This document shows, piece after piece, positions 29,798-56,817 of a stretch of 64,000 nucleotides of DNA. Position 1 is the first letter of the stretch, and each line of letters opens with the position of its first letter. Position numbers and translations under genes: made by a program. The DNA comes from Fimbriimonadaceae bacterium (lineage in GTDB: Bacteria > Armatimonadota > UBA10988). A model generated the notes under the pieces. The model was not told the DNA's origin, did no database searches, and saw only the letters and a program-made list of their open reading frames with translations. Location: the NCBI GenBank assembly GCA_020850355.1, contig JADZEX010000067.1, positions 62,001 through 126,000 of the forward strand, read 5' to 3'.

Positions 29798-30664
29798 ATG
29801 GCTGCCTCCAGACGCGCCCCGCAACCAACTCTGCCGACGCTGGCCGCGCCGCCGGCAGCGCGCCGGCTGCTGGTCGGCGACGCCCTGCAGTTGCTGCGGG
29901 AGCTGCCCGCTGGCTGCTGCCGTTGCTGCGTCACCAGCCCGCCGTACTGGGGCCTGCGCGACTACGGCGTAGAGCACCAGATCGGCGCCGAGGTCGAGCT
30001 TGACCACTACTTGCGCAACCTGACGCTGGTCTTCGGCGAGGTGCGGCGGGTGCTGGCCGATGACGGCACGCTCTGGCTGAACCTCGGGGATGCGTACACC
30101 AGCGGCGGACGCACCTGGCGTGCCAGCGATCGCAAGAACCCGGCGAGGGCGATGGAGTACCGTCCGGCGACGCCCCCAGGCCTGAAGCCGAAGGACCTGA
30201 TCGGCTTGCCCTGGCGGGTGGCTTTCGCGCTGCAGGCCGATGGCTGGTACCTGCGGTCCGACATCGTCTGGTTCAAGCCAAACTGCCAACCTGAATCCGT
30301 CAAGGACCGGCCGACTCGCTCCCATGAGTATGTCTTTCTGCTGAGCAAGTCCGAGCGCTACTATTACGACCAGGAGGCGGTTCGTGAGGTCGGCAGCACG
30401 GGGGGCTCCTGGCGCAATCGGCGGTCTGTCTGGGCGGTCCACACCGAGCCGTTCCCCGAGGCCCACTTCGCGACCTTCCCTCCCAAACTAGTGGAGCCCT
30501 GCCTGCTGGCCGGCAGCGCCACAGGCGACACGGTCCTGGATCCGTTCTTTGGGTCTGGGACGGTCGGGCTGGTCTGCCAGGCCCTGGACCGGGGCTGCCT
30601 TGGGATCGAACTGAACCCGGCCTACGCCGCGCTGGCTCGCGAACGACTCGGGTGGCCCGAATGA
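29798..30664 (+). CDS. DNA (cytosine-N4)-type modification methyltransferase, type II
   Basis: 288 residues. Motif order is beta class: catalytic TSPPYW (46-51) first, SAM-binding DPFFGSGT near 245-252 last, with a target-recognition stretch between. SPPY favours N4-methylcytosine. GTLWLNLGDAY and HEYVFLLSKSERYYYD match site-specific type II enzymes. It overlaps the endonuclease start as ATGA. The pairing with an XcyI-like nuclease suggests a CCCGGG-like site (inference). Confidence 0.9.
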   Translation: MAASRRAPQPTLPTLAAPPAARRLLVGDALQLLRELPAGCCRCCVTSPPYWGLRDYGVEHQIGAEVELDHYLRNLTLVFGEVRRVLADDGTLWLNLGDAYTSGGRTWRASDRKNPARAMEYRPATPPGLKPKDLIGLPWRVAFALQADGWYLRSDIVWFKPNCQPESVKDRPTRSHEYVFLLSKSERYYYDQEAVREVGSTGGSWRNRRSVWAVHTEPFPEAHFATFPPKLVEPCLLAGSATGDTVLDPFFGSGTVGLVCQALDRGCLGIELNPAYAALARERLGWPE

Positions 30665-31641
30665 GGCAGCCCCAGTCGGCGGTGCTGCTGCCGAGCAGCC
30701 AGGTCAGGTTCTGGTCGCGACTCAACGACCTCCGGGCCCGCTGCCTTAGCCCCGCGCTGCGCGATGCCTTAGGCACCGTCCCGATCGCCGACCTGGATGC
30801 GGAACTGCACTCCTACGTCGTTCCGGAGCATCTTGCCCGTGTGGCGAGTTGGGGGCTGCGCGGCGAGGTGGTCTTTGCGACGCCGCTGCTGCTGGGTCGC
30901 CGGCCCGCCTTGTTGGGTTACTACCGCCTGCTGTACGGCTTGTCTCAAAAGGCCTGCTACGGTAGCGGCGGTCCGTTGCAGGGCTGCCGCGCGATGGAAG
31001 AGCACAACCGCCTCTCCGCAGTCGTCGCCGCTCGGCTGCCCGCGGTCTGTCGGTCGCTGGCGGCGTCAGGCTCCTATCTGGTCGAGCGGATCACCCTGCG
31101 CAGCGCTGCCGAGGTGCACGAGCTGCAGTTGTTGACGCTCGGCGCGATGTTCGACGGCTCCGAGCGAAACCGTGTCGGCCGCGATGCGGTCGCCCTGTTC
31201 TGGCAGCTCCTGCGGGAGCTGGTCGGGCCGCACCTGACCGCGGCCTCGGACCGCGAACTGGTCCTCGCCAACGCAGCCGGTCGGACCGTGCGGGTGCTCT
31301 TGGCCGATGACCCCGACGTGACCGTCTGGGAGACCTTCAGCGCCGGCACCGAGGCGCGTCGGCTGTCGATCGAGGTCAAAGGCGGCAGCGATCGCTCGAA
31401 CGTCCACAACCGGCTTGGGGAGGCGGAGAAGTCGCACCAGAAGGCGCGCGCGGCGGGCTTTCGCGATTGCTGGACAATCCTGAATGCGACAGTGACGCCA
31501 GACCTGGCGCGGACCGAGTCCCCCAGCACCGGGATCTTTTTCCAGTTGCGCGACCTGCTGGACGACACCTCGGCCGGCTACGCCGACTTCCGTGACCACC
31601 TCGCCGCGGTGCTCGGCATCCCCGTGGCGTCGCCGGCCTGA
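30661..31641 (+). CDS. Type II restriction endonuclease, XcyI/Cfr9I-like
   Basis: 326 residues from ATG 30661, overlapping the methyltransferase stop. PALLGYYRLLYGLSQKACY (82-100) resembles what I recall of XcyI-type enzymes. A PD-(D/E)xK active site is visible: Pro218-Asp219, then Glu238-Val-Lys240. SNVHNRLGEAEKSHQKAR follows, as in nuclease C-terminal helices. Predicted to cut unmodified DNA at the site protected by the adjacent methyltransferase. The family call is from memory of motifs; the active-site call is from sequence. Confidence 0.78.
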   Translation: MRQPQSAVLLPSSQVRFWSRLNDLRARCLSPALRDALGTVPIADLDAELHSYVVPEHLARVASWGLRGEVVFATPLLLGRRPALLGYYRLLYGLSQKACYGSGGPLQGCRAMEEHNRLSAVVAARLPAVCRSLAASGSYLVERITLRSAAEVHELQLLTLGAMFDGSERNRVGRDAVALFWQLLRELVGPHLTAASDRELVLANAAGRTVRVLLADDPDVTVWETFSAGTEARRLSIEVKGGSDRSNVHNRLGEAEKSHQKARAAGFRDCWTILNATVTPDLARTESPSTGIFFQLRDLLDDTSAGYADFRDHLAAVLGIPVASPA

Positions 31642-46938: not shown

Positions 46939-48207
46939 ATGAGCGACAGCACTCCCAGCACTTCCCACGGCGCCACCCGGCGGCGCTTCCTGAGCACCGT
47001 CGGCTGGGTCGCCGCCGGCGCCGCCGCCGCCGACTGGCGGAGCCAGCGCGCCTTTGCGCAGACCAACCGCCGCGTGCTCGGGGCCAACGACCGCATCCGC
47101 CTCGGCTTCATCGGCGTCGGCAGCATGGGCGGCGGGCACCTCAACGACTTCCTGAAGCTCGGCCGCGAGGGCACCGAGAACTGCGAAGTGGTCGCCGTCA
47201 ACGACATCTGGCAGCCCCGCAAGGAGAAGGCCAAGGCGGCGATTGGCGACGGCGGCAAGCTGTACGACAACTACCGCGCGCTGCTGGACGACAAGAACGT
47301 CGACGGCGTCGTGATCGCCACCCCGGAGCACTGGCACCACCGCCAGTGCCTCGACGCGATGGCGGCCGGCAAGGACGTCTACCTCGAGAAGCCGCTCAGC
47401 CGCTACCTCGCCGAAGCGCTCGAGGTGCGCGACGCGATCCGCAAGAGCGACTGCATCGTGCAGATCGGCGCGCAGTACGCCAGCGAGCCGAAGTGGCACA
47501 AGGCCCACGAGATGCTGCCGACCATCGGCAAGGTCGTCTGGTGCCAGACCAGCTACTGCCGCAACAACCCGCAGGGCGAGTGGAACAACCCCATCGACAA
47601 GTCGGCGACGCCCGACAACCTCGACTGGAAGCAGTTCCTCGGCCCGGCGCCCGAGCGCGACTTCAGCCTCGAACGCTACTTCCGCTGGCGCAAGTTCTGG
47701 GACTACAGTTCGGGTATCTGCGGCGACCTGTTCCCGCACAAGGTCTACCCGTTCATGATCGTGATCGGGGCCGAGATCCCGCAGACGGTCGTCGCGGTGG
47801 GCGGCAACTACGTCCACAAAGAGGACCGCGAGGTGCCCGACACCTTCCACATGATGGCCACCTTCGCCAGCGGCTACACGCTCTGCGTGGCCGGCTCGAC
47901 GGTCAACCAGATCGGCTGGGATGACATGATCCGCGGGCACAAGGCCCGCATGGAGCTGAACTCCGCGCGCGAGATCGTGATCCGGCCCGAGGCCGCCTAC
48001 GCCGAAGAGCTGGACGAGGTCCGCGAGCCGGTCGAGACGGTGGCGCAGTCGCAGACCGAACACCGCCGCAACTGGCTGCAGTGCATGCGCAGCCGCAAGA
48101 CGCCCAACTGCGGGGTGGACCTGGCCTTCGCCGGGATGGTCTGCGTGGCGCTGGCCGAGCAGTCCTACCGCGAGAAGAAGGTCGCCACCTTCACCGAACC
48201 CAAGTGA
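46939..48207 (+). CDS. Tat-exported Gfo/Idh/MocA-family oxidoreductase
   Basis: 422 residues. Tat signal TRRRFLSTVGWVAAG; RLGFIGVGSMGGGHL NAD loop; IATPEHWHHRQ, VYLEKPLSR and SGICGDLFPHKVYP follow. The ordinary EKP motif is present, unlike in the preceding member. An AAAGGA site precedes the ATG. Probably works on the same sugar route as the preceding gene. Confidence 0.9.
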   Translation: MSDSTPSTSHGATRRRFLSTVGWVAAGAAAADWRSQRAFAQTNRRVLGANDRIRLGFIGVGSMGGGHLNDFLKLGREGTENCEVVAVNDIWQPRKEKAKAAIGDGGKLYDNYRALLDDKNVDGVVIATPEHWHHRQCLDAMAAGKDVYLEKPLSRYLAEALEVRDAIRKSDCIVQIGAQYASEPKWHKAHEMLPTIGKVVWCQTSYCRNNPQGEWNNPIDKSATPDNLDWKQFLGPAPERDFSLERYFRWRKFWDYSSGICGDLFPHKVYPFMIVIGAEIPQTVVAVGGNYVHKEDREVPDTFHMMATFASGYTLCVAGSTVNQIGWDDMIRGHKARMELNSAREIVIRPEAAYAEELDEVREPVETVAQSQTEHRRNWLQCMRSRKTPNCGVDLAFAGMVCVALAEQSYREKKVATFTEPK

Positions 48208-48217
48208 CCCGCTGACC

Positions 48218-49138
48218 GTGCAGCTCGAACCGGTGCGGCTGAGCGTCGATGCGATGCGCTGCCGGTTCGAGCTGCTGGTCGGCCACCCCGACCGCCGCGA
48301 AGCCCGCGCCGCCGCCGAAGAGGCAGTCGCCGAGATCGCGCGGCTCGGGTCGTCGCTCAACCCCCACGACCCCAGCAGCGAAGTCGCGCGGCTGCACCAG
48401 GCGGGTGGGCAGCCGGTGCCGCTGAGCCCGGAGACCTGGCGACTGCTGCAGCGCGGCCAGCTTCTGGCCGCGGCCACCGGGCACGCCTTCGACATCACGG
48501 TCGGCGCGCTGCTGGCGGCCTACGCCGACCTCAAGGCCGGGCGGACGACCGACCCGCCCTCGGCCGCGACGGTGGCGGCCGCCCTGGCCGCGACCGGGCC
48601 GGCGCAGCTCCGCCTGGAGCCGGGCTCGCGGACAGCCTCCCTGGGGCACCTCGCCACCCGGCTCGATCTGGGAGCGATCGGCAAGGGCTACGCCGTCGAC
48701 CGCGCGGTGGAGCTGCTGCAGGGCTACGGCTGCACGGCGCTGGTACACGCCGGCACCTCCAGCGTCCGGGCGATCGGCCCAGCGGTCACCGTCGGCCTGG
48801 CCGACCCCCGTGCCGCGGGTCGGCTGCTGGCTCGCCGCACGCTCTGCCACAGCGCCCTCAGCGTCAGCACCCGCACGATTCAGGCGCCCGACGGCACGGC
48901 CAGCACCCGCGCCCATCTGATCGACCCGCGGACCGGTGCCCTGGCGGAGGCCGCCACGCTGGCCGCCGTGGTGGCCCCGGACGCCACCACCGCCGAGGCC
49001 TGGTCGACCGCCCTGCTGGTCGACGGCCCACGGCTGGCTGCGGCGCTGCGCGCGGCCGGGCTGGAAGCCCTGCTGCTGGACCCGGCGGGGGCAACGGTGG
49101 TGCTGGCGGGCGACTGGCTGCCGGCGACGCCGGCCTGA
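48218..49138 (+). CDS. ApbE-like FAD:protein FMN transferase
   Basis: 306 residues from GTG 48218. DLGAIGKGYAVDRAVELL (about 149-166) and AHLIDPRTGAL are the ApbE signature parts. The enzyme attaches FMN covalently to Thr in target flavoproteins. ApbE is normally a periplasmic lipoprotein, but no signal is visible here. Begins 11 bases after the Gfo/Idh stop, so co-transcribed; no obvious target protein lies nearby. Confidence 0.82.
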   Translation: MQLEPVRLSVDAMRCRFELLVGHPDRREARAAAEEAVAEIARLGSSLNPHDPSSEVARLHQAGGQPVPLSPETWRLLQRGQLLAAATGHAFDITVGALLAAYADLKAGRTTDPPSAATVAAALAATGPAQLRLEPGSRTASLGHLATRLDLGAIGKGYAVDRAVELLQGYGCTALVHAGTSSVRAIGPAVTVGLADPRAAGRLLARRTLCHSALSVSTRTIQAPDGTASTRAHLIDPRTGALAEAATLAAVVAPDATTAEAWSTALLVDGPRLAAALRAAGLEALLLDPAGATVVLAGDWLPATPA

Positions 49139-49182
49139 AGGGATCGCGGCGCCGACAGGCAACCAGCGCAGCGGAGCCGACC

Positions 49183-50064
49183 ATGCCACGCCTCGCCGTC
49201 TTCCCGAAGGGTTACCTCGACCAACTCTGCGTCACGGGTGAGATGACCCTCCGCGAGTGGCTCGACCTGGCCGCCACGCTGGACGTTGACGGCGTCGAGA
49301 TGTACGACCGCTTCCTGCCCGACGCCCCAGCCGACCTGCTGGCCCTGCGCGCGGAGCTCGAGGCCCGCGGTCTGGCGATGCCGATGCTCTGCCACTCGCC
49401 CGACTACACGCAGCCCGATCCGGCGGCTCGCGCCGCGGAGGTCGCCCGCACCGAGCGGATGATCGCCGCCGCCGCCACGCTGGGCGCTGTGCAGTGCCGG
49501 GTCCTGTCCGGCCAGGCCCGGCCCGGCCTGGACCGCGAGACCGCCATCGGCTGGGTCGCCGACTGCTGGCGCGCCCTGCTGCCATCCGCGGAACGCCACG
49601 GGGTGGTGCTGGCGGTCGAGAACCACTACAAGGACGGCTTCTGGGAGTACCGCGAGTTCGCCCAACGCGCCGAGCTGTTTCTGGACCTGCTGTCGCGCGT
49701 CGAGAGCCCCTGGCTGCGCGTCAACTTCGACCCCAGCAACGCCCTGGTCGCGGGCGACGACCCCCTCGTACTACTCCCCGCCGTACTGCCGCGCATGATC
49801 ACGATGCACGCCAGCGACCGCTATCTGAGCGATGGCGACCTGGCCGCCCTGCGCCAGGCGGACGGCACCCTGGGCTACCCGCGAACCCTCCGCCACGGCG
49901 TGATCGGCGAAGGCCTCAACGACTACGACCGGATCTTCAGCGTCCTCAGCGCAGCGGGCTGGGACGGCTGGATCTCGATCGAGGACGGCGAGGACGGCCT
50001 GGAGCCCCTGGCCGAGAGCGCGGCGTTCCTACGACGGAAGATTGCCGAGCACTGGCCTGGGTAG
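49183..50064 (+). CDS. Sugar phosphate isomerase/epimerase (AP-endonuclease-2-like TIM barrel)
   Basis: 293 residues. FPKGYLDQLCVTGEMTL N-terminus, VDGVEMYDRF, MPMLCHSPDYTQPD, VLAVENHYKDGFWEY (metal Glu), LRVNFDPSNALVAGDD and ISIEDGEDGL supply the barrel metal and base residues. Acts on an unidentified sugar, cytoplasmic. Last gene of the sulfatase-to-isomerase run. Confidence 0.86.
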   Translation: MPRLAVFPKGYLDQLCVTGEMTLREWLDLAATLDVDGVEMYDRFLPDAPADLLALRAELEARGLAMPMLCHSPDYTQPDPAARAAEVARTERMIAAAATLGAVQCRVLSGQARPGLDRETAIGWVADCWRALLPSAERHGVVLAVENHYKDGFWEYREFAQRAELFLDLLSRVESPWLRVNFDPSNALVAGDDPLVLLPAVLPRMITMHASDRYLSDGDLAALRQADGTLGYPRTLRHGVIGEGLNDYDRIFSVLSAAGWDGWISIEDGEDGLEPLAESAAFLRRKIAEHWPG

Positions 50065-50239: not shown

Positions 50240-52657
50240 ATGGTATGGAACGACGCACTGGTCACTGGGGTGGTCACCAGGATTGTGCCGTCGGGCGTGC
50301 TGGTTCGGTTGAGCGACGGGCGCCACGGCCGGATTCGTTGGCGCCAGTTCGCCACCCGCACGACGGACTTGCAGGCCAGCTTGGGTGAGGCTCGCCGCTA
50401 CCAGCAGGACGCCACGGAGTTGCGCCTGGCCTGGATCAGCATGGCGCGCGATGGCCTGGAGCTGTCGCTGCGCCAGGCCGCTGAGCCGCCTTGGCCAGGT
50501 CATGCTCTCGACCAGGCGCTCGGCCGACCGGCGTTGGCGAAGGTGGTGCGGCTGGTCCAGCGCTTCGCGATCGCCATGCTGGCCAACGGCGTCGAAGTGC
50601 GCGTCGAGATCGATTCGCTCGACGAGTTCCTGAGGTCTCACCGGCTACCGTCAGCGGAGCGCGCGCTGAACCTCGGTGACGAAGTCGAGGGGATCTTGCA
50701 GAGCTACAGCAACCCGGCTGGCTACCATGGACTCCCGCTGCTGTACCTCGATATGGTCGAGGCCCTGTCCGGTACTCCCGCACCCGGTGGCCGGGCGCCA
50801 CGCCGACCGCGCGAGCTGACTCTTGAACCGGCTGGGCCGGCGGGCGGGGGACGGTCCGCCCAGGGCCTGGCGGTGCTGGTGGTGGAGGATGAGCCGGAGC
50901 CCAACCGCGCCCTCTGCGACCGGCTGCGACGCCGCGGCTGCGAGGTCGCGAGCGCCACTGGCTTGGACGACCTGCGTCGACTGGCTGCGGCCTGGGCGAA
51001 CCAGGGGCGCCGGCCGCAGGTGGTACTTCTGGACCTCAACATCCCGAGCCCCGCGGACGGCCTGGCGGCGGTTGGGGTGATCAACCGGCAATGGCCGGCC
51101 TGCCGCCTGGTCGTCACCACCGCGCAGGTCGGCAGCCTGCCGGTTGCCCCCGACGACGGTTTGCTGGTGAGCGCGATCGTCATGGGGATCCTGGACGACG
51201 AACGTCTGGACCGGCAGTTGACGACCGACCTGGAGCGCCATGGCTGGGAGCATCTGCGCCGGGAGATCCTGGGTCTGGAGGAGCCGACGGCGTTTGCCAT
51301 CCGGCACGAGCTGGGGCATGGGCTGACCTTCACCGTGCGTTCCTCTGGCCCGGCCGAGAGCGCCTCCCAGGCCGAGATTCGGGGGCTCTTGGCCGACCTG
51401 ACGGTGCGGACTGGCGCTGCTGGAGCGGCGGTGATCTCGATGCATGCGATGCGCCGCGAACCTCGCATCGAGGCGGCCAGCGGCCTCTACCTGGGCGCCG
51501 CGGCGATCACCGATCCCAAGAACCAGACGCAGGTGCTGGCGAGCTGCATCAGTGACGTGTTGCTGGGCGAGATGGCCTACACCGAAGCCGAGATCAGCGA
51601 TCGCCGCCACAGCCGCCACCACTTCCATGCGGCTATGCTCGGGGACTACCGTTACCTGATCGCGCTGCCGCTCCGGTCATCGGGCGCCCTGCGCCACGGG
51701 CTGTTTGTGGTCGATCCGCAACCGCCCGAAGGCGCCTCCGGGAGTGGCTACGCCGCGGCTCTGGCGGAGGTGCAACGGACGGCCTGGGCGGTGGAAGCGG
51801 TGCTCAACGCCGCGGCACTGAGCGAGCGCAACCGGGTCGAGAGCGGTCTACTCCGGGCCGGGCTGATGCACGCCAGCATCTGGCATGACCTGGCTAAGCA
51901 GCTCTCGACCTTGCTGGGCCAGTCGGAGCGGCTCCTGGGGCTGGCGCCGGGCGACGTGACCTGGCCGGTCGAAGCTGGCGACCACCGCGAACTCCTGGCC
52001 CGCACCTGCAGCATGACCTCGCGGGCCCTGGATCTGAGCGTCTCCCATGACCGCCGGGCAGCCATCCCGCTGGAGACGGTGCTGGACGCGGCCCTGGAGG
52101 CCGCCGGCCGGTGGCAGGAAGAGCGCCCTGCCGCGCAAGCCGTGGTGCTGCGTCGCGTACCGACCACCGGCATCGCCGCGTACTATTTGTGCCGTGGTAA
52201 CGCCGACAGCTTGGAACGCGCCCTGCTGAACCTGCTGGTCAACGCCATCGAGCATCTGGATCGCGCGCTCCACAAGCCCGGCGAGGTGCGGCTAGGGCTG
52301 GAGATCGGCCCGACCACCGCCGAGACCCGCAGCGAACTGAGCGCCGTCCGGGGCATCGCGGATGAGGACTGCCCGGAATACGCCGCGGTGGTGTCGGTCG
52401 TGGACACTGGCCCGGGCATTCCGGCGTTCGTCCGAGAAGACATCTTCCGGCCGCTCTTCACCACCAAGTACGAAGTCGCAACCACAGACAAGGTCGAAAA
52501 GGAGGCGGGATCCGGCCTTGGGCTGGCCATCGTGCGGGCGTTGGTTGAGGGTGAAGCCGGGCTCGGCGGCTACGTCTATGTTGCGCGAGCGCCGCGCTTC
52601 GTTGGGACGACCTTCCGGGTTGTCCTGCCGGTGGAGCCCCAGGAGGAGCCGTCATGA
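50240..52657 (+). CDS. Soluble sensor histidine kinase with tandem S1-like, receiver and GAF-like domains
   Basis: 805 residues from ATG 50240 (GAGAGGAAG upstream). Residues about 4-79 are an S1/OB RNA-binding domain (VTGVVTRIVPSGVLVRL...GLELSLRQ). About 100-172 looks like a second S1 (NGVEVRVEIDSLDEFLRSHRL, LGDEVEGILQSY). About 210-345 is a receiver: VVEDEPE, LLDLNIP with Asp265, no clear Lys. About 372-525 is GAF-like. The kinase has His549 (SIWHD), LLNLLVNAIEH, VDTGPGIP (Asp722) and GSGLGLAI. No membrane segment. It overlaps the next gene as ATGA. The S1 fusion suggests RNA or ribosome sensing (inference). Confidence 0.8.
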   Translation: MVWNDALVTGVVTRIVPSGVLVRLSDGRHGRIRWRQFATRTTDLQASLGEARRYQQDATELRLAWISMARDGLELSLRQAAEPPWPGHALDQALGRPALAKVVRLVQRFAIAMLANGVEVRVEIDSLDEFLRSHRLPSAERALNLGDEVEGILQSYSNPAGYHGLPLLYLDMVEALSGTPAPGGRAPRRPRELTLEPAGPAGGGRSAQGLAVLVVEDEPEPNRALCDRLRRRGCEVASATGLDDLRRLAAAWANQGRRPQVVLLDLNIPSPADGLAAVGVINRQWPACRLVVTTAQVGSLPVAPDDGLLVSAIVMGILDDERLDRQLTTDLERHGWEHLRREILGLEEPTAFAIRHELGHGLTFTVRSSGPAESASQAEIRGLLADLTVRTGAAGAAVISMHAMRREPRIEAASGLYLGAAAITDPKNQTQVLASCISDVLLGEMAYTEAEISDRRHSRHHFHAAMLGDYRYLIALPLRSSGALRHGLFVVDPQPPEGASGSGYAAALAEVQRTAWAVEAVLNAAALSERNRVESGLLRAGLMHASIWHDLAKQLSTLLGQSERLLGLAPGDVTWPVEAGDHRELLARTCSMTSRALDLSVSHDRRAAIPLETVLDAALEAAGRWQEERPAAQAVVLRRVPTTGIAAYYLCRGNADSLERALLNLLVNAIEHLDRALHKPGEVRLGLEIGPTTAETRSELSAVRGIADEDCPEYAAVVSVVDTGPGIPAFVREDIFRPLFTTKYEVATTDKVEKEAGSGLGLAIVRALVEGEAGLGGYVYVARAPRFVGTTFRVVLPVEPQEEPS

Positions 52658-55629
52658 GACCGCGTCGCAACTCCGATGTGCTCTGGCTGATCGAGGACAA
52701 CACCGCGTTCGCCAAAGAACTGATCGCTGCACTGGGCCAGCAAGGGCTGACCGGCCGGCACATCGACTACCGGGAGCTGGACCAGTTGACCGCCGACGAG
52801 GCGCGCCAATGCTTCGTGGCCTTGGTGGACCTGACGCTTCAGCAGCCAGGCGTCTCCGCCCCCGGTGACGCGGTTGGGCGCGGCCTGAAGGCCATCTCTA
52901 GCCTGACGGGTCGATTCGAGTCCCTCCGTGTGATCGCCTACACCGCCAACCGCTTTCGCGTCACACAGGAGAGTGACGCCATCGAGGCCGGCGCCTACGA
53001 TGCTGTCGCCCTCGGTGCACCAACGCCGGCCGCGATCGCGAAGCGGCTCCAGGCCCTGATCGAGCGGATTGGGCAAGAACGCGAGGAGCAGGGACGACTC
53101 GAGGAGATGCTCCGGGGGCGGCGCTGGGCCAGCGCCCTGCTCGATGTCTGGGGCGTCGGAGTCGCGGTGGTCGGACGTCACGACCGGATCGCCTACACCG
53201 ACGAGCGCCACCACCAGTTGACGCCGCCAGCCGGCACTCGCGGCCGGCGCACCTGTTACCAGACCTGGCACGGCTACCAGCGGGCCTGTCTGCAGTGCGA
53301 TGCGCGGACGGTGATGCCGCCGCAGGACGCGCCAGCCGAGTCCGAGTCGCTGAAAGTCGACCTGGTGGGCGAGCGGGTCCTGCACGCCTGGGTCCGCGCG
53401 GTTCCGCTGCGGGTCGCACCGGAAGACCAGCCCTTCGCCGCGATGGAGGCAGTGGTGCCACTGCACCAGCACGACCCGCTCGTCCATGGCGCGCCACTCC
53501 GGCTGCAGGCTGGCGCCCTGGCGCAGGCCGTGCTGTGTCACGCCGGGGCGCGGCGAGTGGCGATACTCGCCGTGGTCAGGCACAATGGCGTCGACCACTG
53601 CGAACTGCTCGCCGAAGCGTCGACCGAACCGCCGGTGACTGCTCGGCCAGAGCCTTCGCCGCTGCAGCAGATCGCGTTTGACCACTGGATTGAGGCCGCC
53701 CGCCAGAGCGGCTTGCCCCAGCGTGTGAAGCTCGATGTGTCTGCTGACCGGGCCGCAGAGACCTGGCAGTGGCAGCCGTACCCGGCTGCCGTCTACTTGC
53801 CGCTCCGCCTGACTCCTGAGCAGACGCCGTTCGGTTTCGTCCGCGTCGACCTCGACGCCGAGCCGGCAGCCGACCGGCCGGTGGTCGCGCCGCGGTTGGC
53901 GCAGGAGCTGGCGCATCTGCTGGCGTCTCGGTTGACGCGCCCGTACGAGCGCTGGAAGGAGCGCGACGAGTGCCGCAAGGCACTGGAGTGGGTGAGGGAC
54001 GCCGTCGGCGTGGAGCGCCTGCGACTCTACCGAGCCCATGAGGACGGGACTTGGTTGTGGGGCTACCTGCACGCCGGCAGCGTGGTCAGCGACTTCGAGG
54101 CGACGCACATCCTGGTGCGGCAGGACCCGTCCAGCTACCGCACCTGCGTCCTGGACCGGCGGGCCAGCATCTTCGACGGCACTTGCCCACTGTCACGCCA
54201 GGTCGGCGCCAGCATCTCGCGCATCGAGGTGCCGGTCTACGATGACCAGTGCAACCTAGTTGCCAAACTGAGCGCGGACAACGGTCAGCGGCCCGTCAGC
54301 GAGGAGCACCTGCGCAGCTTGTCACTGGCAGCCGCCGAGATCCGCGAACTGCTGTGCCGCACCTTCCTTATGCCCCCAAGCCGGCAGTACTGTGGCCAAC
54401 TCAGCCACGCCCTCGACTGGAGCCGGCTGCAGGCCCGCGTCGCGTTGGCCAACTCCAGCGACCAGGCACTCGCATCGCTGACCCACGAGTTGATGACGCA
54501 GACCGGTGCCACCTCGGCTTACTTGCGGCTGTTGCGTGAGGACGGCTTCCTCTGGCTGGTCCGCGACACTGCCTTCGGCGACCTGAGCAAGGTCGTTCCC
54601 GAGAAGCACCCCTGGGGTCAGCGCAACTCGCTAGCGGCGATTGTCAGCCAAGATCGCGTACCGCGGACATTTGAAGGAGAAGACGATTGGGGCGAGCTTC
54701 TCGCCACCTGGGGTGGCCGAGCCGACCGCTCGCAACTGGAAAAGCAGGTAGCTGTCGGGGCCTTTCCGCTGATCGTCGGAAAAGAGGTCCTCGGCACGTT
54801 GCACCTGCACTCGGAGGTCGACGCCGGCTTCTTCCGCCCCGAAATCGTACGGGCCGCCGTCGAAGTCGCCTCGGACATTGCCCGCATTGTGCGTGATGTG
54901 CGGGACGCGGCGAACGCCGCCAGGGCCGCCCAGTTGCAACAGTGGCGGGACTTGGCCTTTCAGTTGGCGCACCAGATCAAGAACCCGCTCTTCGCGCTCG
55001 TTCCGGCGGTGGCTGAGATCCGAACCTTGGTGGCCGCTGCCCCAGGAGGCGACCTGGCGGCAGCTCTGACTGACACCGAGGCCGCCGTGGCACGGATCGA
55101 GCGCGTCGTCCAGGGCGTCATGGACTACGCCAAAGTCCAGGCCGTGCCCGAGGAACTATTGCCGCTGCCTACCGCGCAGGCCGTGTGGGTCCAGGCCGCG
55201 CGTGGCTGGCCGGCCGGCCATGGCATGTCTGCCGAGTTCGCCGGACCGGAAAACCTGCTCGCCACAGCCGACCGCAAGCTTCTCCAGACTGCCTTGGAGG
55301 CCCTCTTCACGAACTGCCAGCAACATGGGGGCAAGCAAGTGAAGGTCCGCGTCGATGGTCCATGTGTCGCGGGTGAGGACCCCTTTCCTGCGCTGGAGCG
55401 GTATGCTATGCTCAGCATTGAGGACTCGGGCACCGGGATCCCACCGGCATTGCGGCCGAAGCTGTTCCAGCCGTTTGGGTCGGCGCGCCCCGAGAGCACC
55501 GGCCTCGGGCTGGCTGCGGTGCGGCGGTTCATCGAGGCGATGGGCGGCCAGGTGACGGAGGACGGTCCTGGCGAGCTGTCTGGGGCACGCTTCCGGATCG
55601 GGTTGCCAATGGGCGACCCGTCGGGCTGA
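52654..55629 (+). CDS. Soluble hybrid histidine kinase: receiver-PAS-GAF-GAF-GAF-kinase
   Basis: 991 residues, ATG overlapping the previous stop. Receiver about 8-140: LWLIEDN and VALVDLT with Asp59; the usual Lys is missing. PAS-like about 160-225 with a Cys-rich end (CYQTWHGYQRACLQC). Three GAF-like domains at about 280-430, 440-570 and 590-745. Kinase: His773 in LAHQIKNP, Asn887 in FTNCQQHGG, Asp924 in EDSGTGIP, STGLGLAAV. No membrane span or output domain. Probably acts with both flanking genes in one phosphorelay. Confidence 0.82.
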   Translation: MRPRRNSDVLWLIEDNTAFAKELIAALGQQGLTGRHIDYRELDQLTADEARQCFVALVDLTLQQPGVSAPGDAVGRGLKAISSLTGRFESLRVIAYTANRFRVTQESDAIEAGAYDAVALGAPTPAAIAKRLQALIERIGQEREEQGRLEEMLRGRRWASALLDVWGVGVAVVGRHDRIAYTDERHHQLTPPAGTRGRRTCYQTWHGYQRACLQCDARTVMPPQDAPAESESLKVDLVGERVLHAWVRAVPLRVAPEDQPFAAMEAVVPLHQHDPLVHGAPLRLQAGALAQAVLCHAGARRVAILAVVRHNGVDHCELLAEASTEPPVTARPEPSPLQQIAFDHWIEAARQSGLPQRVKLDVSADRAAETWQWQPYPAAVYLPLRLTPEQTPFGFVRVDLDAEPAADRPVVAPRLAQELAHLLASRLTRPYERWKERDECRKALEWVRDAVGVERLRLYRAHEDGTWLWGYLHAGSVVSDFEATHILVRQDPSSYRTCVLDRRASIFDGTCPLSRQVGASISRIEVPVYDDQCNLVAKLSADNGQRPVSEEHLRSLSLAAAEIRELLCRTFLMPPSRQYCGQLSHALDWSRLQARVALANSSDQALASLTHELMTQTGATSAYLRLLREDGFLWLVRDTAFGDLSKVVPEKHPWGQRNSLAAIVSQDRVPRTFEGEDDWGELLATWGGRADRSQLEKQVAVGAFPLIVGKEVLGTLHLHSEVDAGFFRPEIVRAAVEVASDIARIVRDVRDAANAARAAQLQQWRDLAFQLAHQIKNPLFALVPAVAEIRTLVAAAPGGDLAAALTDTEAAVARIERVVQGVMDYAKVQAVPEELLPLPTAQAVWVQAARGWPAGHGMSAEFAGPENLLATADRKLLQTALEALFTNCQQHGGKQVKVRVDGPCVAGEDPFPALERYAMLSIEDSGTGIPPALRPKLFQPFGSARPESTGLGLAAVRRFIEAMGGQVTEDGPGELSGARFRIGLPMGDPSG

Positions 55630-55701
55630 GCACGTGCGGGCGGGGTGGCAGACTGCGAGCGCGTTTGAGGCGGTAGCTGCTTCTCAGAGGGGAGGAGAGC
55701 G

Positions 55702-56817
55702 ATGCAGAACAGCGCGAAGTCGGAGCGCATCCGGTTTGGGTTCGTGGACGACGACCAGCAAGCAGTCACGGCTGCCCGCCGGATCGTCCGGGGGCACAAC
55801 GACATCGACTGGATCGGCTTGTCTGTGTTCGCCGGCAGTTCCGCTGCCGACGTCCAAGCGGCACTGGACGCCGTCCGAGAGGCCCATTTGGATGTCCTGG
55901 CGGTGGATCTCTCGATGCCCTGGCCCGACACCCTATCCGAGCCGTGGAAGGCCGGCATTGAGTTCATGCGGATGGTCCAGGGCCTCGGCCTGCCGCTGAT
56001 CCTGATTGGTCTCACGGCGCATGGAGATCGTGACGACATCAAGCTCGCCGCGGCCGGCGTGGGCTGCCTCTACTTGGTTGACAAGGGAGCAACTGCCCAG
56101 CAGGAACTGCCGCTGTGGATCCGGCTGGCGAACGAGCATCGGCGGCGGCAATGCGCTGAGCGCCTGGCTAGTCAGATGCAATCTGACAGGGCTATCGCCG
56201 AGCGAGCGGCGCGTGTGCGCCAGTTCGTGCTTGATGCGGCGGCTGACTGCTGCCACGAAATGGGCACGTACGCCACCGCCGCCAAAGCAGTTCTGGACAC
56301 GCTGCCCGCCAGCGCGCTGAGTGCCACGGAACGAGAATGCCTGGCGCAAGCCCTGGAGCAACACGAGGAGGCGCGCGAGCGCCTCCGGTGGTTGCTACAC
56401 CCCGCAGGCCGTGCTGCCGTACGGAGCTGGCAGGATCTCTACTCGCGGACGATCGAGCCATGCGTTGCGCGTTGCATCAACTACCATGCAGGCGCCGGAA
56501 TCCAGTTAGCGGCTGTTGTACCAGCGGCCGCAGCCGTCGTCGTCGAGGATGAGCAACTGCGCTGGCAAGTCTGGTGCGCCGTATACGAGGTCGGCAACTA
56601 CTGCCAGACACACCGAATCCATACTGGAAGCATCGTCATCGAGAGCGACGTTGTCGGTTCGGAACTCGCACTAACGATCTTCCTGCACGACGGATCTGGT
56701 CAGTTGCCGGCTTTCGGCCCACCCACCGACCTCAAGCTTCTGGGAGTGTCGGTGCCCGGCTGGACCATTAGCCAAAACCAGACCACTGCCACCATGCGCC
56801 TACCGCTCGCTCCGTGA
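55702..56817 (+). CDS. Response regulator with degenerate kinase-like C-terminus
   Basis: 371 residues; strong GGAGGAG upstream of ATG 55702. The receiver is complete: VDDDQQ acidic residues 16-18, phospho-acceptor Asp69 in VDLSMP, Thr105, Lys128 in LVDKG. About 165-240 is helical with a His (CCHEMGT, His185), like a dimerisation/phosphotransfer helix pair. About 260-371 recalls a GHKL ATPase but its boxes are worn down (AVYEVGNYCQTH, LHDGSGQLP). No DNA-binding domain. May be the final acceptor or phosphotransfer partner for the two kinases upstream. Base composition is noticeably less GC-rich than neighbouring genes. Confidence 0.75.
   Translation: MQNSAKSERIRFGFVDDDQQAVTAARRIVRGHNDIDWIGLSVFAGSSAADVQAALDAVREAHLDVLAVDLSMPWPDTLSEPWKAGIEFMRMVQGLGLPLILIGLTAHGDRDDIKLAAAGVGCLYLVDKGATAQQELPLWIRLANEHRRRQCAERLASQMQSDRAIAERAARVRQFVLDAAADCCHEMGTYATAAKAVLDTLPASALSATERECLAQALEQHEEARERLRWLLHPAGRAAVRSWQDLYSRTIEPCVARCINYHAGAGIQLAAVVPAAAAVVVEDEQLRWQVWCAVYEVGNYCQTHRIHTGSIVIESDVVGSELALTIFLHDGSGQLPAFGPPTDLKLLGVSVPGWTISQNQTTATMRLPLAP

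Follow-up and report, generated by a model that had tools for sequence, protein, structure and literature searches.

Soluble relays in which a receiver and a kinase core share one chain have been described before. In Leptospira, LvrA and LvrB are two soluble, co-transcribed REC-kinase proteins with neither transmembrane nor DNA-binding domains (PMC5863495); LvrA phosphorylates the receiver of LvrB, and LvrB (encoded by lic11708) phosphorylates LvrC, a REC-Bergerat anti-sigma-like protein that is the product of lic11110 (PMC13269768). For Rhodospirillum centenum, the part of the published account drawn upon here (PMC3868531) describes two receiver-bearing kinases of the CheA3/CheS3/CheY3 system, one of which phosphorylates the receiver of the other, together with a third receiver protein. 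ChpT is a dimer with a kinase fold in which the lid has been replaced; it was found free of ATP and ADP, it shows no autophosphorylation, and its role is that of a phosphotransferase (PMC3433190).

The locus considered here occupies positions 50240-56817 of the window, that is, of the whole 64,000-nucleotide stretch of Fimbriimonadaceae DNA that was analysed, and consists of three open reading frames on the forward strand, A, B and C, of 805, 991 and 371 aa; all features given below for these genes lie on that strand. Gene A (50240..52657) begins with an ATG that has GAGAGGAAG upstream and encodes two S1 domains, a receiver, a region without family match and a histidine kinase; gene B (52654..55629), whose start overlaps the stop of A via ATGA, encodes a receiver, a PAS/GAF-like region, a GAF domain and a histidine kinase; and gene C (55702..56817), which follows B after a spacing of 72 nt, encodes a receiver and a degenerate DHp-CA. 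AGGAG-like ribosome sites are found upstream of A and of C, the packing of the genes is tight and operon-like, and we infer that the three are co-transcribed. The reading frames and their coordinates confirm the arrangement described in an earlier sequence-only reading, in which three adjacent genes on one strand, the first two overlapping by ATGA, had been recognized.

That reading had also stressed that no member of the trio has a transmembrane segment, a helix-turn-helix or another known output, and hydropathy and family searches bore this out. The highest mean hydropathy over 19 residues was 1.6 in A, 1.6 in B and 2.0 in C, and as the peak in C (residues 263-281) falls within the modelled CA domain and includes a Pro, no transmembrane segment is predicted; profile searches, including Pfam, found no helix-turn-helix or other output family in A, B or C. 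The absence of membrane and DNA-binding output, which had been presented as an oddity, is not new, LvrA/LvrB being the precedent, and the principle of a soluble REC-kinase relay with its output elsewhere is already established. The view of the trio as a soluble phosphorelay cassette with several receivers is well supported, though precedented (PMC5863495, PMC13269768). What is unusual is that a piece of ribosomal S1 is fused to a kinase and that the last member is dead-kinase-like.

With LvrA/LvrB, the "hybrid response regulators", the trio has in common a soluble REC-kinase operon free of transmembrane and DNA-binding domains and a receiver input to the kinase core; the output receiver protein of the Leptospira system is a separate protein outside the pair, to which we liken the unlinked output proposed below. 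However, there are two proteins in that system and three here, S1 and sensor regions are inserted here, the receivers of A and B are without the conserved Lys, and C is without kinase motifs that are present in LvrB; no close sequence relationship of the trio to LvrA/LvrB was seen. The CheA3/CheS3/CheY3 system is likewise comparable in its two receiver-bearing kinases and its third receiver protein; it differs in being a chemotaxis-like cascade, and neither an S1 module nor a pseudokinase is described in that part of the account.

The reading which we prefer, with a probability of roughly 0.55, is that the trio forms a rare multi-kinase phosphorelay in the cytoplasm, with both A and B signalling to C and with C handing the phosphate on to a regulator not linked to the locus; the phosphate flow, the unlinked output and the role of S1 are what we infer. 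A and B would be soluble sensor kinases under receiver control (the Rec-HK class), autophosphorylating on His549 and His773 respectively, whilst their atypical, Lys-less N-terminal receivers may tune the signal or relay it within the A/B pair. Both kinases would phosphorylate the receiver of C at Asp69, and the degenerate DHp-CA of C would serve as a ChpT/Spo0B-type dimeric phosphotransferase, or else as a signalling pseudokinase, the signal leaving via His185 for a response regulator whose gene lies outside the locus. For the S1 pair of A, the most likely role would be that of a docking module, binding protein or, weakly, nucleic acid, and not that of an RNA-binding output. If this is true, two soluble sensor kinases are routed into a hub that joins a receiver to a dead-kinase phosphotransferase, and a module derived from ribosomal S1 has been recruited to a histidine kinase.

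The kinase half of the proposal can be followed in the motifs of A and B. Protein A matched HATPase_c (8e-16) and REC (5e-8) in Pfam. Its receiver (aa 212-340, 50873..51259) keeps the acidic pair, Asp265 and Thr294 and has no conserved Lys, and its histidine-kinase core (51830..52654) is intact at His549, the N-box, the D-box (DTGPG) and the G-box (GSGLGL). Protein B matched HATPase_c (1.5e-15) and GAF (8e-5); its atypical receiver (aa 9-130, 52678..53043), for which the Pfam E-value was only 0.09, keeps Asp59 and Thr97 and again has no conserved Lys, a GAF domain was matched by profile at aa 602-746 (54457..54891), and the kinase core (54931..55626) is intact at His773, the N-box, the D-box (DSGTG) and the G-box (STGLGL). 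The layout of a Rec-controlled histidine kinase, with an N-terminal receiver ahead of DHp-CA in one chain, is found in A and B, with domains inserted, and in C.

The domains assigned in the sequence-only reading stand in part. The S1 pair of A, its receiver and kinase (both statistically solid), and the receiver (weak), one GAF and kinase (both solid) of B were recovered, whereas the supposed GAF of A (aa 345-530, 51272..51829) and the supposed PAS and first GAF of B (residues 150-440) had no convincing match in Pfam, NCBIfam or the PDB sequences, and the middle GAF of B was marginal (0.048); the assignments without a match may nevertheless be correct. Inside the unmatched 150-440 region of B, at about aa 195-217 (window 53236-53304), there is a CYQTWHGYQRACLQC motif, which we take to be reminiscent of Cys-bearing PAS domains.

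The tandem S1 of A (aa 4-157, 50249..50710) fell below the Pfam cut-off (0.0014) and was recovered through comparison with ribosomal protein S1. Residues 4-157 aligned with ribosomal protein S1 of the same phylum at 3e-8 and 30% identity, collinear over two domains, with Escherichia coli bS1 at 9e-6 and with NCBIfam S1 models at 1e-7, and the inter-domain linker ending in PPW is shared as well. By sequence, then, the S1 pair is genuinely rpsA-like, and its homologues are a pair of successive S1 domains in ribosomal protein S1. The differences from rpsA are that A carries its S1 domains fused to a receiver-kinase and that the residues for RNA contact are replaced. When A is aligned with 12 rpsA homologues, S-G-V-L stands in domain 1 where these have an invariant F/Y-G-A-F, and Arg takes the place of the His of "LLH"; in domain 2, where the homologues mostly have x-x-A-F, A has F-A-I with the aromatic displaced. 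In structures of canonical S1 domains, the F-G-x-F and His positions are known to face RNA, and because they are largely replaced here, binding of RNA by the S1 pair appears doubtful.

This bears directly on the role in sensing RNA or translation that had been suggested for the locus, whereby the S1 pair would bind RNA or the ribosome and gate the kinase, or phosphorylation of the receiver would gate an S1 output. The pair is truly related to successive domains of rpsA, down to the linker, and is the only candidate in the trio for a nucleic-acid-type input or output module. However, conserved aromatic and His residues have been exchanged in domain 1 (F to S, F to L and H to R), no fusion of S1 to a kinase was found described in the literature searched, and there is no conservation to support it; with the canonical RNA-facing residues largely altered in both domains, the suggestion is not supported, and we consider an RNA-sensing relay unlikely. 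An RNA- or ribosome-coupled phosphorelay, in which the S1-S1-REC-kinase would link phosphorylation of its receiver to the S1 module and the REC-pseudokinase phosphotransferase would be the shared hub, seems to us rather improbable.

For C, the sequence-only reading had proposed a receiver plus a worn kinase-like region. The receiver (aa 1-130, 55702..56091; REC 8e-6 in Pfam) is the only one of the three with a full active site, comprising the acidic cluster, Asp69, Thr105 and Lys128, and has a long beta3-alpha3 loop. It is followed by a DHp-like helical hairpin (56149..56397), in which His185, within CCHEMG, occupies the invariant phospho-accepting column, and by a Bergerat/CA-like domain (56398..56814) that keeps the N-box residue and has lost the ATP lid and the G-box. 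The D-box reads HDGSG: in one of two alignments, where the two glycines stay in register, His stands at the Asp column, whilst in the other the Asp is kept and the glycines are shifted. As the His, N, D and G boxes are all intact in A and B but not in C, C is not classed as an active kinase.

The kinase-like half of C had no Pfam match. Against a profile of 48 kinase sequences it scored 7.9 bits, the best of 200 shuffles reaching 4.0, a modest excess (E about 0.02). Modelled with an alignment of 47 kinase cores, it gave a DHp hairpin and a CA sandwich at pLDDT 81.7, with values below 50 confined to the short, disordered lid (fragment residues 190-205); that alignment contained true kinases only and so biases the result towards a kinase fold, and AF2 run on the single sequence gave a poor structure (pLDDT 44). 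In the PDB, the 50 top Foldseek matches of the alignment-based model were histidine-kinase or phytochrome-type cores, full-length LvrB amongst them. The shuffle comparison, the model and the PDB matches together uphold the worn kinase-like region, and on sequence and model C resembles a dead kinase that has become a relay protein. The intact motifs of A and B, taken with a C that has kept its His, lost its G-box and altered its D-box, support A and B feeding a phosphotransferase-like C; the loss of motifs from C could equally be decay.

Amongst described proteins, LvrB matches C in its REC-DHp-CA layout and in size (371 versus about 376-382 aa). With ChpT and Spo0B, C would share, as judged from alignment and model, a DHp bearing a phospho-His and a CA-like domain without a normal ATP lid. 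However, these are stand-alone DHp-CA proteins and C has its own N-terminal receiver, so membership of the ChpT/Spo0B family is not claimed. LvrC offers a different comparison, in which C would be a REC-Bergerat partner-switching output of the anti-sigma type and the output would lie within the locus. LvrC, the output of the Lvr relay, joins a receiver to a Bergerat domain (PMC13269768), and both fold types recur in C. Yet a hairpin like the long DHp-type one of C, with its kinase-like His, is not described for LvrC, the ATP-binding motifs of C are lost whereas LvrC was crystallised with ADP, and kinase cores, not RsbW or SpoIIAB, made up the best 50 fold matches of C; we therefore hold an output of this kind to be improbable.

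Counted against the preferred relay is the lack of homologues from which co-evolution of the three proteins could be read. Across 291 genomes of the phylum, the four others of the same order amongst them, none of the three had a full-length relative; a pattern scan of 85,000 species gave nothing with A and, with B, no more than an ordinary NtrB-like kinase. Viral contigs, scanned for close relatives of A and C, held none; translated searches of plasmids returned only kinase and receiver domains for A and no match for C, and those of phages with A returned only kinase-domain matches. The trio was absent from the neighbourhoods of the weak REC/kinase matches in other genomes (L034-L037, L060-L068) and of the matches in Manganitrophus plasmids (L058, L059), and the kinase clusters on C21, C104 and C71 of its own genome are unrelated to it. 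Joint conservation of the three genes, on which the sequence-only reading had made its proposal depend, could thus not be shown in the 291 phylum genomes or in the wider scans.

The neighbours of the trio are mostly metabolic (a sulfatase, Gfo/Idh oxidoreductases, ApbE, a TIM barrel and a heparinase-like protein). The Gfo/Idh-ApbE-TIM-barrel block to its left (window 46939-50064) is conserved in a sister genus at about 70-78% DNA identity in the aligned pieces, and the next gene there is, by inspection, ROK-type sugar kinase-like and not the trio. GC3 is 0.84 in A, 0.82 in B and 0.75 in C, against a mean of about 0.88 for the neighbours; taken singly the deviations are modest, but of the four lowest values in the set three belong to the trio. 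The low GC3, the lack of relatives and the sister genus without the trio suggest, from sequence comparison, that the trio was acquired. Another reading is that of a decaying remnant: the system would have been acquired, its last gene would be degenerating, and the gene for its true output would have been lost. In favour of this, GC3 drops along the trio, C has lost kinase motifs, and the sister genus has the left-flank genes without an adjoining trio. However, each of the three frames is open over its full length, the ribosome sites of A and C are in place, and C retains both its phospho-His and every active-site residue of its receiver, which would be unlikely in a random wreck; we regard decay as an outside chance.

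A complete type II restriction-modification pair, in which an N6/N4 DNA methylase gene overlaps that of an XcyI-family endonuclease, lies at window 29798-31641. A part for the trio itself in anti-phage or conflict signalling, as the sequence-only reading had entertained, could be argued from the soluble sensors, the possible horizontal acquisition and the patchy occurrence. However, PADLOC gave no match beyond one of 15.6 bits to SduA in the REC region of A, the adjoining genes, mostly metabolic, include no effector, nuclease or toxin, the restriction-modification pair is about 20 kb away, and the plasmid and phage collections yielded only kinase and receiver domains and the viral contigs nothing. 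A defence role is accordingly very improbable.

About 72 HATPase_c matches exceeded the cut-off in this genome, so that kinases are not exceptional there. At 10000-24000 of C104 (L105), genes for an HSP90-like HATPase_c_3 protein and for weakly sacsin-similar and esterase/STAND-like proteins adjoin, with transposase-like genes nearby, and the group has the look of a conflict-type cluster that is uncharacterised. A different genome of the phylum encodes a soluble kinase-receiver pair, made up of a protein of 1265 aa with an ATPase-like N-terminus (by inspection), a GAF and a kinase core (L061:1599-5393) and, close by, a REC protein with a receiver similar to the one in C (L061:6546-7292). The genome of the trio also encodes a CBS-CBS-HATPase_c protein amongst hydrogenase-like genes (L104:4672-5571).
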